Virus record (IMG/VR): IMGVR_UViG_3300036835_000598
Coordinates: 1 to 41,832 of that record
Source of the DNA: a virus
Reading direction: 5' to 3' (one strand)
Length of the DNA: 41,832 nucleotides
Both the position numbers and the translations under genes were made by a program. Under the pieces are notes generated by a model. That model made no database searches, was not told the DNA's origin, and saw only the letters and a program-made list of their open reading frames with translations. This document shows, in pieces, positions 6,071 through 12,108 of the stretch. Position 1 is the stretch's first letter, and each line of letters begins with the position of its first letter.

Positions 6071-7594
6071 ATGGCATCGCAGTTCGAGGCGAAGTACCGT
6101 TTCACGGGTCGCGTCGACCTGAGCAACGATACGTTCAACCGCGTGTTCCGGGACCTCGACGCGCGGACCACCGCGCTCGAGGCGGCCATCGACAACCTCG
6201 ATGCGGCGCGCGACAAGCTCGTGGAGCTGGGTCTCGACCAGCTCAACAGCCAGATCGATGCCGCGATCGAGGGTCTGCAGAGCCTGATCAACGGGGCGAA
6301 TGCAGATCTCACAGACACGCAGACCGAGATCAACGACCTCAACAGCCAGCTGGCAGCACTCGATGCCGCCTTCGATGCGATCATCGCCGGCGGCTCGCTG
6401 CCGGCGACTGCGGTCACGGTGTCGGCGATCCCCGGCATCGTCTCAGCGCATGTGCAGGGGGCCCTTGCCGAGCTGCAGGGCGACATCAACGCCGCCAACG
6501 CACTGATCGCCGGCCTGCAGAAGGGCGCCATCGTCGTCGCCAACGTGACGGCCCGCAACGCTCTGACGGGGCTTGCCAAGGGCAACATCGTCTTTGTGCA
6601 GGACGATGGCGCCGGCAAGTGGGCCGAGTACCAGATCACGTCCGACGGCAACGGCACCTGGTCGGGGGTCTCCAAGACCAACACGCTCAACCAGGACGCC
6701 TACTTCCCGGTAACCGGCGGGACGCTATCCGCGTTCCTGCACGTCTTCCCGACGCCTGCGACTCCGACCAAGGCGCTGCGCGTCAGCACCTGGGCCGAAG
6801 TCTCCGGCGGTGCCGATGCCAGGGCTGTCTTCGCCTCCAACCTCTACTCGCACTATAACGGCGTCTCGGTCGAGTACCGCACTGCCAACGCGCATGCCAC
6901 CGCCGGCTATGCGGCCATCCGGATGGTACAGGGGACGCTGGAGTTCGCCGGCGCCTCGGGTGCGACGACTGCCGATGCGAGCGTCACTCCGACCTGGAAT
7001 ACGCTCTGGCACGCGGGCAATTTCACGCCCGCCACCAAGGCCAACCTGGCCGGCGATACGTTCACCGGCGACATCTCCATCTCGAAAACGGCTGGCAACC
7101 AGCGGCAGCTGTTCATCAAGTCAGCGACACTGGTGCGCTGGGCGGCCGGGGCTGATGCCTCGGTGGAAGGCGGCTCAAATGCCGGCTCCAACTTTGCGAT
7201 CGGGCGCTTCAGCGACGCCGGCTCGTTCGTCGCCAACTCGCTGACGATCGCCCGCAACAGTGGCAACGCCACCTTTGAGGCCCAGGTGCTGGCGGCCTCG
7301 TTCAACACCACCTCTGACCGGCGCCTGAAGACGGCGATCAAGGACTTCGCGCTTGCGGGCTGCCGCAAGGTGCTGGATCTCGCGCCCGTCACGTTCCGCT
7401 TCAAGCGCAAGAAGCAGACCGAGATCGGGCTCATCGCCCAGGACGTGCTCGACCATATGCCGGAGGTCGTCGTCGCCGACGACGACGGCATGCTGTCGAT
7501 CAATTACGGGTCTGTCGTCGCCGCGCTACTGGGTGTGGTCAAGGACCAGGAGCGCCGCATCGTGGCGCTGGAGGCGGCGCTCGCCGCAAAGTGA
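6071..7594 (+). CDS. tail fibre protein with S74 intramolecular chaperone
   Basis: A 507-residue fibre or spike that would bind the host surface. Residues about 10-125 are heptad-like coiled coil. Residues about 130-155 carry the fibre motif VSAHVQGALAELQ. A beta-rich shaft follows, including LWHAGNF and FTGDISI segments. The last 93 residues form a Peptidase_S74/endosialidase chaperone: SDRRLKTAI with the expected Ser415-Lys420 pair, APVTFRFK, EIGLIAQDV, a SINYGSVVAALL helix and a C-terminal coil. This domain folds the trimer and then cleaves itself off, probably just before Ser415. It is followed 17 bases later by the first of three small Cys-tailed proteins. Confidence 0.88.
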   Translation: MASQFEAKYRFTGRVDLSNDTFNRVFRDLDARTTALEAAIDNLDAARDKLVELGLDQLNSQIDAAIEGLQSLINGANADLTDTQTEINDLNSQLAALDAAFDAIIAGGSLPATAVTVSAIPGIVSAHVQGALAELQGDINAANALIAGLQKGAIVVANVTARNALTGLAKGNIVFVQDDGAGKWAEYQITSDGNGTWSGVSKTNTLNQDAYFPVTGGTLSAFLHVFPTPATPTKALRVSTWAEVSGGADARAVFASNLYSHYNGVSVEYRTANAHATAGYAAIRMVQGTLEFAGASGATTADASVTPTWNTLWHAGNFTPATKANLAGDTFTGDISISKTAGNQRQLFIKSATLVRWAAGADASVEGGSNAGSNFAIGRFSDAGSFVANSLTIARNSGNATFEAQVLAASFNTTSDRRLKTAIKDFALAGCRKVLDLAPVTFRFKRKKQTEIGLIAQDVLDHMPEVVVADDDGMLSINYGSVVAALLGVVKDQERRIVALEAALAAK

Positions 7595-7610: not shown

Positions 7611-7835
7611 ATGGCCAAACTGTCCGTTGCCGGGGTCGAGGTCGTGGATGATGCCGCGCTCGTCGACTGGGCCCGCGCCAAGAACAAGCCGCCGCTGATG
7701 ACCGGCATCAACAGCACCACCAGGGAGGAGACCCTTGGCGGCGGAAACTTCTATACCCTCTATCTCGAGGACGACGGCACCGGCAAGCTGCGGCTCGTGC
7801 GTCGCAGGCCGACCGGCTTCAACTGCAGTTACTGA
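7611..7835 (+). CDS. small tail-associated protein, Cys-tail family copy 1 (reduced tail)
   Basis: A 74-residue protein, first of three tandem paralogs. Shared features are an N-terminal V-VDDAALVDWAR, a KNKP motif, N-TTRE, then EDDGTGKLRLVRR. The DW...KNKP element resembles short shaft motifs in tail fibres. Its C-terminus, FNCSY, has only one Cys, while copies 2 and 3 end in repeated Asn/Asp-Cys. A GAGG lies 5 bases before the ATG. It could be an older or inactive copy, or a cap without the modified tail. No named family is recognised. Confidence 0.8.
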   Translation: MAKLSVAGVEVVDDAALVDWARAKNKPPLMTGINSTTREETLGGGNFYTLYLEDDGTGKLRLVRRRPTGFNCSY

Positions 7836-7856
7836 GGGCGGACCGGAGTCGAGGCC

Positions 7857-8099
7857 ATGGACAAATATCTGGTTGGCGAAGTCGGGGTGATCGACGACGC
7901 CGGCCTGATCGACTGGGCCCGTTTCAAGAACAAGCCCAGCCTCGTCGCCGGGGTCAACGGCACGACCAGAAGCGAGGTGATCGGATCGGGCTCTGAAGGC
8001 GCTATCACCTACTATGTGGAGGATGATGGTACGGGGAAGGCGCGTCTGGTCGAGCGCACGACGTTCAGCAACTGCAACTGCAACGACTGCGGCTGCTAA
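7857..8099 (+). CDS. small Cys-tailed protein, copy 2 (candidate modified substrate)
   Basis: An 80-residue paralog with DDAGLIDWARFKNKP, NGTTRSEVIGSGS and EDDGTGKARLVER. It ends NCNCNDCGC, four Cys mostly spaced by Asn or Asp. Such an exposed tail of alternating Asn/Asp and Cys at the extreme C-terminus is unusual for a cytoplasmic or virion protein. It looks like the core of a ribosomally made, enzyme-modified peptide, with the first ~70 residues as folded leader or carrier. The radical SAM/SPASM and 2OG oxygenase genes downstream are the likely modifiers. GGAG lies 8 bases before the ATG. The role is inferred. Confidence 0.85.
   Translation: MDKYLVGEVGVIDDAGLIDWARFKNKPSLVAGVNGTTRSEVIGSGSEGAITYYVEDDGTGKARLVERTTFSNCNCNDCGC
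8070..8096 (+). repeat. AAC/GAC-TGC coding repeat (Cys tail of copy 2)
   Basis: The last nine codons before the stop are built from AAC-TGC units with one GAC and one GGC. This six-base periodicity could change length by replication slippage and so vary the number of Cys residues. Confidence 0.7.
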
Positions 8100-8119
8100 G
8101 AGCTGCTGAGGGTAGGGCC

Positions 8120-8365
8120 GTGGCAAAGTATTCCGTCAACGGCGTCGAGGTGGTCGACGACACGGGCCAGGTCGACTGGACCCGCTTCAAGAACAAACCC
8201 ACGCTGGTCAACGGTGCCAATGGCACCACCAGGAACGAGACGATCGGGTCTGGCAGTATCTCGGCTTTGACCTTCTATCTGGAGGACGATGGCACCGGCA
8301 AGGCGCGCCTTGTCCGGCGCGTCACGCTCGTCAATTGCGACTGCAACTGCGATTGCTTCTGTTGA
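8120..8365 (+). CDS. small Cys-tailed protein, copy 3 (candidate modified substrate)
   Basis: An 81-residue paralog with VEVVDDTGQVDWTRFKNKP, NGTTRNETIGSGS and EDDGTGKARLVRR. It ends NCDCNCDCFC: five Cys in strict alternation. The start is GTG, set by a GAGGGTAGGG tract 2-11 bases before it and by alignment with copies 1 and 2. The stop is 12 bases before the next gene, so all three copies and the following enzymes are probably one operon. The perfect XC alternation suggests either a metal site or thioether crosslinks made by the SPASM enzyme encoded at 9868; neither is proven. Confidence 0.85.
   Translation: MAKYSVNGVEVVDDTGQVDWTRFKNKPTLVNGANGTTRNETIGSGSISALTFYLEDDGTGKARLVRRVTLVNCDCNCDCFC
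8333..8362 (+). repeat. Asn/Asp-Cys coding repeat (Cys tail of copy 3)
   Basis: Ten codons alternate AAT/AAC/GAC/GAT (finally TTC) with TGC/TGT, so every second codon is Cys up to the stop. The mixed use of synonymous codons suggests that selection on the protein, not only recent slippage, keeps the alternation. Confidence 0.7.
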
Positions 8366-8377
8366 GGACCGGTCCGC

Positions 8378-9172
8378 ATGAGGCTCTTGAGGCATGAGGA
8401 CAGCCGATATCCAGCGCGCCACTTCTACCTGGAGGTGACGCCGGCGCGGGCGGTGCTGCGCAGCTTTCACGGAGTCGACGCCGTGACGGGCGGCGCCGTC
8501 GAGGGCGCCACCATCCACCGGGATCTTGCCGGCACGTGGCTCTTGCCGGGGCAGCAGAGTGTGCTGGACCCGGCCGAGCTCTCGGGCGCGGAATGGTGCG
8601 ATCATGCCGCATGGTTCTTTGCTGTCGCATCAAGCGGCGAGCATCGCATGCCGTTCAACCGCTTCCCCCATACTGCCATCTCCAAGACCGATTCCGGCCA
8701 TTACCTGAGCATGCTGCGCGACATGGCGGTTGCGGTATGCTGGGTGCCGTTCGCCTCGAACAGGGATCTGACCCAGGCGGTATGGAAGATCGGCAACCGC
8801 CCGGACTTCGTTGCCTGTGCCAATGTGCCCGTGACCGGCACGCTGGACACCGGCGCGCTGCGCAACTGGTCCATGGCGCCGTTCCTGCCGAAGGTCCGCC
8901 TGAGCGGTCCCCGCAGCATTGCCCGTGACGACTATGCCCAGGTGACCGTCTCGGTGCTGGACGGCGAGACCGGCTCCGTCGTCGACACGCCCTGCACCGT
9001 CTACGTCGAGGCCAAGAGCGGCTATCTGCCCAGGGTACAGGTTCCGGTTGAGGGAACCGCCAGGTTCAAGGCCGGTGCGCTTGGACTGGAGCCGGGCGAC
9101 AGCGTTGAGCTCAGCGCCGGTTTCAAGCACGTGTCCGGCCTCGCCAGGCTTTCGATCCCGGTAACGGCGTGA
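8378..9172 (+). CDS. unknown protein with Ig-like C-terminal domain, in the Cys-tail cassette
   Basis: A 264-residue protein of no family I recognise. Residues 1-150 are mixed and aromatic, with a DHAAWFFAVASSGEH and an HTAISKTDSGHYLSM segment. Residues about 165-264 look like an Ig-like beta sandwich (VRLSGPRSIARDDYAQVTVS, VSVLDGETGSVVDTPCTVYV, GLEPGDSVELSAGF). There is no signal peptide. GAGGACC precedes the ATG by 8-14 bases, and its stop overlaps the next start by four bases (GTGA), so it is translated with the oxygenase. It may be a virion partner of the small proteins, a chaperone, or a substrate-presenting subunit; the sequence does not decide. Confidence 0.7.
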   Translation: MRLLRHEDSRYPARHFYLEVTPARAVLRSFHGVDAVTGGAVEGATIHRDLAGTWLLPGQQSVLDPAELSGAEWCDHAAWFFAVASSGEHRMPFNRFPHTAISKTDSGHYLSMLRDMAVAVCWVPFASNRDLTQAVWKIGNRPDFVACANVPVTGTLDTGALRNWSMAPFLPKVRLSGPRSIARDDYAQVTVSVLDGETGSVVDTPCTVYVEAKSGYLPRVQVPVEGTARFKAGALGLEPGDSVELSAGFKHVSGLARLSIPVTA

Positions 9173-9864
9173 GCGAGGCGAGCAGCGGTGGGATGACTGG
9201 GCGCTATCATGCGCTATGGCCCACCATCGTCGCCATCCACGACGATGTGCTGACGCCGGCCGACCAGGCGCAGGTGCTGTCCGCCTGTGTCGAGGTAGGC
9301 GCGCGGATGCAGATCGGCCCGCGGCCGCAGGACCGCGCCGGCTATTGCCTCTGGGACGTGGCGCCGGCGACGAGACCCTTGTTCGATGCCTTCCGGGCCG
9401 CAAGCCTCGGCTACCTGCGCGAGGCGCTCGGCAACGAGGAGCGGCTCGAACCGCGCCTGCTGGCCTGGGTCAATGTCTACCGGCTCGGCGATCATATCGG
9501 CGCACATATGCACAATTCGGACCTGACGGGCATGTACTTCGCCTCGGTCGGGCCGCCTGGCGCCGAGCACGCTCACCGTGCGGACAGCGGCCATGCGGTG
9601 CTGATCGACCAGCGCGGGCGGCTCGGCTACGGCCGGCGCCAGGGCGGCTGGCACCCCGACCACGAGACGGTGCACTTCGCCGGCGCGCCAGGCCGGATGA
9701 TTCTGCACCCAGGCGGTGTCAGCCACTACGTGGCGCCATACTTCGGGGACGCGCCGATGGTGGTGGTGTCGTGCGACATCGATTTCTGGCCCACCGAGGA
9801 TGCCGCCTCCAGGCCGCGGGACTTCATCGGCCGGGGGCTGTTCCGGGCTCGTTTCCCGGACTGA
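9169..9864 (+). CDS. 2OG-Fe(II) dioxygenase, phage type
   Basis: A 231-residue enzyme of the 2-oxoglutarate/Fe(II) oxygenase superfamily, close to the 'putative 2OG-Fe(II) oxygenase' (TIGR02466/PF13759-like) group common in phages. The core reads WVNVYRLGDHIGAHMHNSD, giving candidate iron ligands His113/His115 and Asp118, then RMILHPGGVSHYVAPYFGD with His186. These enzymes hydroxylate side chains such as Pro, Asp or Asn. The Arg that normally follows the distal His by ~10 residues and holds 2OG is not obvious; that stretch reads APMVVVSCDI. The GTG start overlaps the previous stop (GTGA); an ATG at 9193 is an alternative. Target inferred: the Asn/Asp-Cys tails. Confidence 0.85.
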   Translation: MSEASSGGMTGRYHALWPTIVAIHDDVLTPADQAQVLSACVEVGARMQIGPRPQDRAGYCLWDVAPATRPLFDAFRAASLGYLREALGNEERLEPRLLAWVNVYRLGDHIGAHMHNSDLTGMYFASVGPPGAEHAHRADSGHAVLIDQRGRLGYGRRQGGWHPDHETVHFAGAPGRMILHPGGVSHYVAPYFGDAPMVVVSCDIDFWPTEDAASRPRDFIGRGLFRARFPD

Positions 9865-9867
9865 TTG

Positions 9868-11181
9868 ATGCGAGGCAGCATGGCCCCGTTCCGCCTCCAC
9901 ATGCGCGATCGCGACGGCGGCGCCCACGTGCTCGCCTATGACCCGCACACCTCCGAGCTCAAGCGCGAGGACGGGCCGGGCCATTGGGTTGACGCGGTGC
10001 CGCCGGCGGCGCCCAAGGACTGGCAGGCCGTCACGCGCGTGTCGCCGGAGTCCCCGGGCCGCAAGACCGGGGCCGTCAAGCGCCTCAAGATACAGCTCGG
10101 CCTCGCCTGCAACATGGGCTGCAGCTACTGTTTGCAGAAGGACGAGGTGCAGCACGGCACGGCGACCGGCACCATCGCTTCCAAGCGGTTTCTGGCCGGG
10201 CTCGACCGCTGGCTGACTGGGTCGCCGGAGCGCATCGAGTTCTGGGGCGGCGAGCCGCTGCTTTACTGGCACAAGATCGAGATCCTGGCGCCGGCGCTGC
10301 GTCAGCGCTTCCCCGATGCCAAGTTCGTCGTCATCACCAACGGCACGCTGCTCGACGACTACAAGGCCGACTGCCTGTGGGGCTGGGGCTTTTCGATCGG
10401 CGTCAGCCATGACGGGCCCGGCCAGCACGTGCGCGGGCCCGACCCGTTCGACGATCCGCGCAACGGCGAGGCGCTCATGCGCGCCATCCGCCGCTTCGGC
10501 GAAGCCGGCCGGGGGAGCATCAACGCGGTGCTGAGCCCCGCCAGCTACGATGCGGCCGCTGTGACGCGGTGGTTCTGCGAGCGGCTGGCCCCCGATGGAG
10601 GCTGGGACGTGCCCGTCGCCTTCGAGGGCGTGGTGCACGACTACGCCGTGACGGAGGAGGGGCACAGCTCGGCCGCCTTTACGCCCGAGCAGCTCGCCCA
10701 CCTGACGCGCACGCTATCCATCCACCTGATCAATGGCGAGGTGCCTGGTCTTGCGGATCGCGTATCGCGCCTGATCGGGTCGCTGCTCGATCGCCGCCCC
10801 AGCTCCGCGCTGGGTCAGAAGTGCGGCATGGACCGGCCCGACCAGATCGCCGTGGACCTGCTCGGCAATGTCACGACGTGCCAGAACACGGGTGCTCTCG
10901 GGCGGCATCGGATCGGCCACATTGGTGCGCTCGATAAGGTTGCGCTCAATTCCGCCTGGCACTGGTCTCATCGCGAAGAGTGCAGCAGCTGCCCGGTGCT
11001 GCAGTCGTGCGCGGGGTCCTGCATGTACCAGGACGGGGACCAGTGGGCCAACTCGTGCAACGCCGAGTTCGCGTTCAATGCCGCGATCTTCGCCGCGGCG
11101 CTGTTTCACCTGACCGGGCTGGTGCTCACGCGCATCGAGGGCGCTATGATCCGGCCGAAACTGGCATTGCGCGCTGCCTAG
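9868..11181 (+). CDS. radical SAM/SPASM peptide-modifying enzyme
   Basis: A 437-residue radical S-adenosylmethionine enzyme. The cluster motif CNMGCSYC (Cys81, 85, 88) binds the SAM-cleaving 4Fe-4S cluster, and GGEP (127-130) contacts SAM. The C-terminal SPASM domain is complete: Cys319-X13-Gly-X4-Cys338, then Cys372-X2-Cys375-X5-Cys381-X3-Cys385 and Cys397, enough for two auxiliary clusters. SPASM enzymes mature ribosomal peptides (sactipeptide and ranthipeptide thioethers, PQQ, mycofactocin) or act on sulfatases; no sulfatase is nearby. The first ~70 residues are not a typical RRE fold by eye. It starts 3 bases after the oxygenase stop; ATG 9868 was chosen, with TTG 9865 and ATG 9880 as alternatives. 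Confidence 0.92.
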   Translation: MRGSMAPFRLHMRDRDGGAHVLAYDPHTSELKREDGPGHWVDAVPPAAPKDWQAVTRVSPESPGRKTGAVKRLKIQLGLACNMGCSYCLQKDEVQHGTATGTIASKRFLAGLDRWLTGSPERIEFWGGEPLLYWHKIEILAPALRQRFPDAKFVVITNGTLLDDYKADCLWGWGFSIGVSHDGPGQHVRGPDPFDDPRNGEALMRAIRRFGEAGRGSINAVLSPASYDAAAVTRWFCERLAPDGGWDVPVAFEGVVHDYAVTEEGHSSAAFTPEQLAHLTRTLSIHLINGEVPGLADRVSRLIGSLLDRRPSSALGQKCGMDRPDQIAVDLLGNVTTCQNTGALGRHRIGHIGALDKVALNSAWHWSHREECSSCPVLQSCAGSCMYQDGDQWANSCNAEFAFNAAIFAAALFHLTGLVLTRIEGAMIRPKLALRAA

Positions 11182-11184
11182 CGA

Positions 11185-11928
11185 TCACTCCCGCGTCTGT
11201 TGCTTGACCAGGAACGTGTGGCGCTCGCCGGCGAACGTCAGGGATATGGAGTATTCGGCAACGCCGCCATCGGTTTTCTGCGGCGGGTCGATCACAACAA
11301 CTCCGCCGTGCCATTCGCCCGGCATCAAGGTGTGGTCCTTGATGATCGTTGCCTGCAGCTGGGCCAGCTTCGACTGCGCCTGGTCCTCGATGGACGCCAT
11401 GGAGTCGGCTGTGCGCGCCGCGTTGGCGTTTGCAGCCGCGCTGGCAAGTGCCGGGTTATAGGTGGTCTGGGAGTAGGTGCCGTACCGGTTGCCGTATGAG
11501 TAGCTGCCGGTCGTGGTGCTGTAGCCCGACTGGGCTGCCGAAACCGCTCCGAGCGCGCCGCCGATGGCTGCGAGCGCCATCTGCGTGTTGCGCTGCGTCT
11601 CCACCTCCTTTGTCAGTTCCTCATGCGTGTATACGCGCAAGCTGGCGACGCGCGGCTTGAGGCTCTCCACTGAGATGGACGATACAGTGAACGTCTCGGG
11701 CGCCTTTCCCCTGTTGAGCATGGCGATGACAAAGCGCGGCCGGCCATAGGCTTGCTGCGTTGGCGCGATCGGTCTCAGGAACACTGTGTTCTTCTTGGCC
11801 GATATGAGTGCCGGCACGCCCTCTCTGATCAGGGCCTGCTGGCCTGGTGCCGGCGTCAACGAAAAGCTGTCCCGCGGCGCGGCGCATGCGCAAAGCATGG
11901 CGCAAGCGGCTATTGGCCAGATCCTCAT
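11185..11928 (-). CDS. outer-membrane-type lipoprotein, unknown function
   Basis: A 247-residue secreted protein. Its N-terminus MRIWPIAACAMLCACAAP is a lipoprotein signal, with modification expected at the Cys before AAP. The middle, about residues 120-175, has a glycine/alanine segment and a Tyr/Ser/Thr-rich stretch (GSYSYGNRYGTYSQ), and the C-terminus is beta-rich. The ATG at 11928 has a GGGGGAT ribosome site 6-7 bases upstream; a TTG six bases earlier is less likely. It converges on the radical SAM gene with only three bases between the stops. Phage lipoproteins often block superinfection, but no such family was recognised here. Confidence 0.7.
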   Translation of the reverse strand: MRIWPIAACAMLCACAAPRDSFSLTPAPGQQALIREGVPALISAKKNTVFLRPIAPTQQAYGRPRFVIAMLNRGKAPETFTVSSISVESLKPRVASLRVYTHEELTKEVETQRNTQMALAAIGGALGAVSAAQSGYSTTTGSYSYGNRYGTYSQTTYNPALASAAANANAARTADSMASIEDQAQSKLAQLQATIIKDHTLMPGEWHGGVVVIDPPQKTDGGVAEYSISLTFAGERHTFLVKQQTRE

Positions 11929-12108
11929 TGGCAAATCCCCCTTATCGAAAAAAGATCAGTACGGCCCAGCGCAGCCTGATTCTCCGCAAATACTGTAGCA
12001 GCGCATGACGTGCCGGTCTGTTGCGCACCTACAACAGAACCCCCGCGCGGGCGTCCCGCACCGGCGCCCGCGCGGGATCGGTCCGCCCGCACCCAAATGG
12101 CGGACCGG

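Follow-up and report, generated by a model that had tools for sequence, protein, structure and literature searches.

A candidate tail-tip maturation module of phages: a radical SAM/SPASM enzyme encoded with Cys-tailed fibre proteins

Introduction

Maturation of Cys-rich segments by radical S-adenosylmethionine (SAM)/SPASM enzymes is known enzymology, and PapB-type maturases make Cys-Asp/Glu thioethers (-2 Da each). Fibre tips, which decide which host a phage binds, are usually pictured as plain folded protein, and to our knowledge no radical-SAM-modified virion protein was known before. Here we explore a gene cassette of the IMG/VR virus record IMGVR_UViG_3300036835_000598, positions 1 to 41,832 (hereafter the window, meaning the whole stretch of 41,832 nucleotides). 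On the + strand it comprises an S74 tail fibre, three small paralogs, an immunoglobulin (Ig)-like protein, a 2-oxoglutarate (2OG) oxygenase and a radical SAM/SPASM enzyme. We consider it fairly probable that this is a phage tail-tip maturation module, in which the phage's own radical SAM/SPASM enzyme acts on a C-terminal Cys tail, most plausibly by thioether cross-linking.

Several described systems resemble this arrangement in part. The ranthipeptide system PapB/freyrasin likewise has a radical SAM/SPASM enzyme beside a Cys-rich substrate with Asp or Asn, but freyrasin is a leader-core peptide with CX3D, whereas the phage substrate would be a fibre tail with xC repeats. PapB tolerates spacings of n = 0-6 in its Cys-Xn-Asp motif (PMC9413430). 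CteB/SCIFF (thermocellin) is the top structural match and shares a SPASM domain with three Cys available for auxiliary cluster I (Aux I), which may leave an open site; yet sequence identity is 17%, and CteB has a recognition element (RRE) of the kind found with ribosomally synthesised and post-translationally modified peptides (RiPPs) and acts on a small six-Cys peptide, unlike the xC repeats of the phage tails. The anaerobic sulfatase-maturating enzyme (anSME) anSMEcpe has the same fold and SPASM layout and acts on a Cys of a large protein, whereas the phage system lacks both the additional Cys that ligates Aux I and the target motif of sulfatases. Aux I has an open site in CteB and is fully ligated in anSME (PMC6231123). 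T4 gp37-type HxH tips and S74 self-cleaving fibres also have a specialised C-terminal tip and a self-removing C-terminal maturation domain (S74 there, Hint in some phages treated here), but neither a radical SAM enzyme nor Cys repeats. Hedgehog and bacterial intein-like Hint proteins share the N-terminal Cys nucleophile, the block-B His and the lack of a C-extein; in the phages, by contrast, the released segment would be a Cys-tailed fibre encoded next to a radical SAM enzyme.

Results

Relatives of the third small paralog were found neither by tblastn in named phages nor by a single-sequence viral scan. Since the small proteins diverge too fast for similarity search, their association with the enzyme was tested through the enzyme itself and through the tail pattern. 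Among full-length enzyme members with at least 4.5 kb of upstream sequence (n = 117), 115 had a Cys tail, or a tail preceding a Hint domain, on the same strand within 5.6 kb. Open reading frames (ORFs) on the opposite strand gave 7/117 and distant radical SAM enzymes 0/11; when relatives were merged at 90, 70 and 55% identity, the ratios became 79/82, 34/36 and 19/20. The two exceptions were a non-phage YcaO cluster (L215) and a locus with a tailless, possibly frameshifted fibre ORF (L225). For the reverse test, viral contigs were scanned, blind to the enzyme, with a DNA pattern for NCNCNCxC, which gave at least 120 stretches; the sample was the 68 loci with the pattern no more than 12 residues from the C-terminus, 44 of which had at least 2.5 kb of downstream sequence. 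The enzyme followed within 4 kb on the same strand in 43 of these 44, the exception being a 33-residue ORF. The ratio was 24/25 for non-redundant proteins and, with a stricter enzyme score, 43/45 for tail proteins, against 0/13 for an N-terminal NCNCNCHC family and 0/32 for chance out-of-frame matches. Tailed proteins without the enzyme were thus confined to 1/44 loci and enzymes without a Cys-tailed protein to 2/117, so that the system proposed in an earlier, sequence-only reading of the window survived on both counts. More than a hundred loci of phages and prophages have the pair, which is therefore not due to chance. A pattern scan of 385 genomes was uninformative, the pattern being too strict (it missed a genome with three enzyme copies). 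The NCNCNCHC small proteins (13 loci) were considered as members and rejected as a different, N-terminal Cys family from which the enzyme is absent. Small viral proteins starting like MKCKNCNCNCHCSLKEHGDMYGVCNC (L091, L092, L094, L099, L110, L125 and others) form a separate Cys-rich family without the enzyme.

The residue preceding each tail Cys is Asn in 67%, Ala in 12% and Asp in 10% (137 unique tails). Across 74 tailed proteins the only near-invariant columns are N-C-x-C-x-C; architectures vary and the repeat stays. In most loci the tail ends a tail fibre of 200-700 residues. The main matches of tailed proteins are PHROG tail-fibre families, and one fibre cluster spans 160 loci; PHROG similarity and this cluster place the relatives among tail fibres. 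The small proteins of the window match no family model searched (Pfam, PHROG, NCBIfam), and the fibre association of those of 80-81 amino acids (aa) is suggested by their position and by an N-terminal segment, VVDD..DW.R.KNKP, common to all three paralogs. That the tails are carried in the virion, as had been supposed from the window, is made likely by the tail being the C-terminus of a recognisable tail fibre in most relatives, and display of modified tails on virions appears likely. In some fibre-like proteins Asn-Cys units (NCNNGNCNNCANCSNGNC...) extend beyond the tail over a large part of the protein (L190 291-1286, L186 734-1135, L130, L258 8530-8985).

The enzyme (9865..11181, +) has 438 aa counted from TTG 9865, ATG 9868 or 9880 being likelier starts, and matches PF04055 above cut-off (4e-9) and phrog_1802 (1.6e-54), a catalogued radical SAM family for which PHROGs gives neither substrate nor function. 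The CX3CX2C radical SAM cluster motif (10108..10131, +) holds C82, C86 and C89, and the SPASM domain (10822..11058, +) holds C320, C339, C373, C376, C382, C386 and C398; all ten Cys are invariant in 66-68 diverse relatives. The SPASM pattern CX13GX4C ... CX2CX5CX3CX11C is indeed complete, as first read. Three conserved Cys are available for Aux I, with no invariant extra Cys (ligands assigned by motif). The structure model (pLDDT 92) has CteB (5wgg), a thioether-forming enzyme, as its best match in the PDB, followed by anSMEcpe, ChlB, TigE and SkfB, with the epimerase EpeE also matched. PapB is the most widespread NCBIfam match among relatives (65/66) and the nearest named family. The window enzyme scores 59 bits against the PapB model NF047865 (curated cut-off 340), 30.7 bits against the SCIFF/CteB model TIGR03974 (cut-off 425) and 32.5 bits against the anaerobic sulfatase maturase model TIGR03942 (cut-off 349). 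Beyond phages, a gammaproteobacterial metagenome-assembled genome (L215 5252-10317) encodes a YcaO cyclodehydratase (PF02624 1.5e-40), an ATP-grasp-like protein (weak match), a small GDCGC ORF and a 45% identical enzyme, possibly a new RiPP cluster. The enzyme therefore has relatives in peptide-modifying clusters.

There are 419 relatives of the enzyme in viral contigs and a further 79 loci in genome contigs, the close relatives being mostly from contigs of Alpha-, Beta- and Gammaproteobacteria and some Verrucomicrobiota. Near-full-length matches among 50,697 named phage records are limited to Achromobacter phages JWF and 2-1, which like the Limnohabitans, Thalassobacter and Rhodoplanes prophages are culturable carriers. 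In Thalassobacter stenotrophicus CECT 5294 a single genome has three full enzyme/tail cassettes (L213, L214, L230) and a fourth, partial enzyme match. The small tandem form of the window has close counterparts, the best being the Rhodoplanes tepidamans prophage L204, in which an S74 fibre, an Ig-like protein and the enzyme are accompanied by three Cys-tailed proteins in tandem. Directly after its radical SAM gene lies a protein (L204 10086-11381) with a FWSGGVDSTAMIVSLLRAGA (PP-loop-like) motif and no Pfam match.

The sequence-only reading had missed a variant, present in JWF, 2-1 and about a dozen loci from metagenomes or prophages, in which the tail lies inside the protein and directly precedes a Hint domain. 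Fibres of this kind, with the Hint domain C-terminal and adjoining the tail, lie at L002 5847-7298 (Achromobacter phage JWF) and L003 5736-7178, and further ones are found in L030, L031, L033, L054, L114, L132, L180, L190, L227, L244, L254, L255 and L268. The Hint domain starts with a Cys at or just past the tail end (JWF: NCNCDCNCNCS-CFPAGT). PF05203 matches the JWF fibre from residue 308 (3e-12); of seven fibres scanned it exceeds its cut-off in JWF only, and PF14623 is just above its own in L030. The nucleophile Cys1 is present in 15/15 and block-B [TS]xxH in 11/15, the remaining four having AG[AG]H in the same column; a C-extein is absent. Together these features are as expected of a hedgehog-type self-cleaving domain, and the predicted self-cleavage would turn the internal tail into a C-terminus. 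We take the placement of Hint right after the tail as independent support that a C-terminal tail matters. The JWF fibre is annotated merely as 'Hom_end-associated Hint family protein', and the open-access papers that discuss JWF mention neither this enzyme nor the Hint domain. Hint and 2OG oxygenase at first looked mutually exclusive (1/11 vs 103/137), but the difference was gone after collapsing lineages at 70% identity (p = 0.6), and we do not claim it.

The window itself is myovirus-like, with genes for a P2-I-type tail protein, tail sheath, tape measure and endolysin, and hence derives from a contractile-tailed phage. The gene run read from the sequence was found in full on the + strand. 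It is preceded by the tail fibre (6071..7594, +) with its C-terminal Peptidase_S74 intramolecular chaperone (PF13884 1.3e-12; PHROG tail-fibre families). Paralog 1 (7611..7835, +; 74 aa, 58-66% identical to paralogs 2 and 3) ends in a degenerate tail, FNCSY, with a single Cys, so that NC-repeat tails are carried by two of the three paralogs. Paralog 2 (7857..8099, +; 80 aa) ends in NCNCNDCGC, whose codons (8070..8096, +) are a putative modified segment; in paralog 3 (8120..8365, +; 81 aa) the corresponding putative segment, suggested also by the tail statistics, is NCDCNCDCFC (8333..8362, +). A convergent, lipoprotein-like ORF starting MPMRIWPIAACAMLCACAAPRDSF (window 11185-11934, -) bounds the cassette.

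The Ig-like partner protein (8378..9172, +; 264 aa) is encoded in 117/148 full loci, in most cases immediately behind the tailed gene; an alternative protein of 232-240 aa replaces it in 16 loci, never with both present, and 15 have neither. Its label is borne out for the C-terminal domain, where the AlphaFold model (pLDDT 96.3) matches Ig folds in the PDB by Foldseek; the full-length fold is matched solely by uncharacterised phage proteins. A Pre-toxin TG assignment (PF14449, below cut-off) was rejected, the best-aligned PDB matches being Ig-type domains. The 2OG-Fe(II) oxygenase (9169..9864, +; 231 aa), which overlaps the Ig-like gene by 4 bases, matches PF13759 above cut-off (2e-7) and phrog_81 (1.8e-11), and its putative metal-binding residues H113 and H186 are invariant in 57 relatives. 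A first estimate by phmmer that it is rare (1/82) was overturned by profile search, which found it in 104/148 loci and about half of the independent lineages, and in 0/11 distant-enzyme control loci. Its membership in the system stands as frequent, not as obligatory. Phages carry 2OG oxygenases widely, so its link is weaker than that between tail and enzyme.

Discussion

We propose that the substrate is the (Asn/Asp/Ala-Cys)n C-terminal tail of a tail fibre or, as in the window, of small fibre-associated proteins; that the Cys tail is what the enzyme acts on we hold to be very probable. On the model of CteB and PapB, the enzyme would join Cys sulfurs to carbons of neighbouring residues, and for Cys thioether cross-links as the product we see close to an even chance. 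The three-Cys Aux I, which resembles the open-site CteB and not anSME, supports this chemistry. The fibre tip would thereby become rigid and resistant to chemical attack. A Hint domain that cuts itself off would, in one branch, leave the tail C-terminal; the Ig-like protein or its alternative of 232-240 aa probably serves as a partner of the fibre or in its assembly, and the 2OG oxygenase, where present, probably hydroxylates residues of the tail or the fibre. Such a tip may provide rigidity, protease or redox resistance, or receptor contact, and so may serve adsorption or stability.

The same tail could be altered by other radical chemistry: epimerisation or editing of every second residue (alternating D/L, polytheonamide-type), or conversion of Cys to an aldehyde as by anSME, giving a beta-helical or reactive tip. 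Such products would fit the strict period of two residues, in which Asn fills 67% of the non-Cys positions, the presence of anSME among the closest structures and of EpeE among the PDB matches, and the annotation of the JWF enzyme as 'anaerobic sulfatase-maturating enzyme'. Epimerisation alone, however, needs no Cys kept at every second position, and an anSME-like reaction agrees poorly with three Aux I Cys where anSME has four and with tails in which no sulfatase CxPxR motif was seen; as PapB-like matches are moreover the most widespread, we regard this family of products as unlikely. A metal-binding tip, for which the trimer's Cys tails would hold iron, zinc or an Fe-S cluster in the manner of the T4 gp37 HxH iron sites or PAAR tips and the enzyme would load or build the site, draws on geometry: with its two-residue period the repeat would set alternating Cys on one strand face at the fibre C-terminus, much as in HxH needles. 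Metal binding alone would need no radical SAM/SPASM enzyme in nearly every case, and the Cys-rich NCNCNCHC control proteins occur without one, which makes this explanation improbable.

Two further possibilities separate the enzyme from a displayed tail. The cassette could be co-transferred while the enzyme acts on another fibre site, on the Ig-like protein or on a host molecule; cassettes do move as blocks, and the Ig-like protein is nearly as constant as the tail (117/148). The Cys tail nevertheless persists where Ig-like protein and oxygenase are replaced or lost (16 with the alternative, 15 with neither) and recurs on differing architectures that keep just the xC repeat, so that we think it very improbable that the tail is not the substrate. 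Hardly credible, finally, is a diffusible RiPP-like peptide that the small proteins would set free on cleavage, as a bacteriocin or signal, without its becoming part of the virion. The tailed proteins of the window are just 80-81 aa long and tandem, like RiPP precursors, and a homologous enzyme stands in a YcaO cluster; but no protease or exporter was recognised in the window's gene run, the small proteins share the DW.R.KNKP-type segment and sit behind tail fibres, and most relatives have the tail on a fibre of 200-700 aa. The description as RiPP-like given by the sequence-only reading holds in that the system would work like RiPP maturation; in the strict sense it is doubtful, since the candidate substrate is a structural protein with a fibre-type N-terminus, leader-core cleavage, protease and exporter were not recognised in the gene run, and no RRE is evident.

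Some points count against tail-tip maturation by cross-linking. The PapB, SCIFF, Nif11 and anSME models all score far under their curated cut-offs, so that the chemistry is not readable from family membership. The N-terminal ~45 residues of the enzyme are modelled as beta strands, in which a classical RRE-type domain is not evident, and Ala, the second commonest residue before tail Cys, is a poor partner for a PapB-type link. The samples also have bounds, 80 of the 419 viral relatives at locus level and the first 120 tail-pattern stretches. The thioether chemistry is argued by analogy.

A search of the open-access literature, which may have left a description unseen, gave no published account of such a system, in line with the earlier statement that no characterised phage system with this gene set was known. 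What would be new is the phage fibre tip as a substrate and its Hint-exposed form. All considered, it seems to us rather probable that this is a new kind of virion maturation, in which a dedicated radical SAM enzyme covalently rebuilds the distal C-terminal tips of fibres, exposed by Hint in some phages and altered by a 2OG oxygenase in others, across phages of Alpha-, Beta- and Gammaproteobacteria and some Verrucomicrobiota.

Conclusions

If this proposal is true, host recognition and virion stability gain a chemical dimension through a widespread enzyme dedicated to altering the tip, and fibres expressed without the enzyme may be incomplete. The family would also supply radical SAM enzymes whose target, at the end of a large protein, is a simple (Asn-Cys)n repeat.

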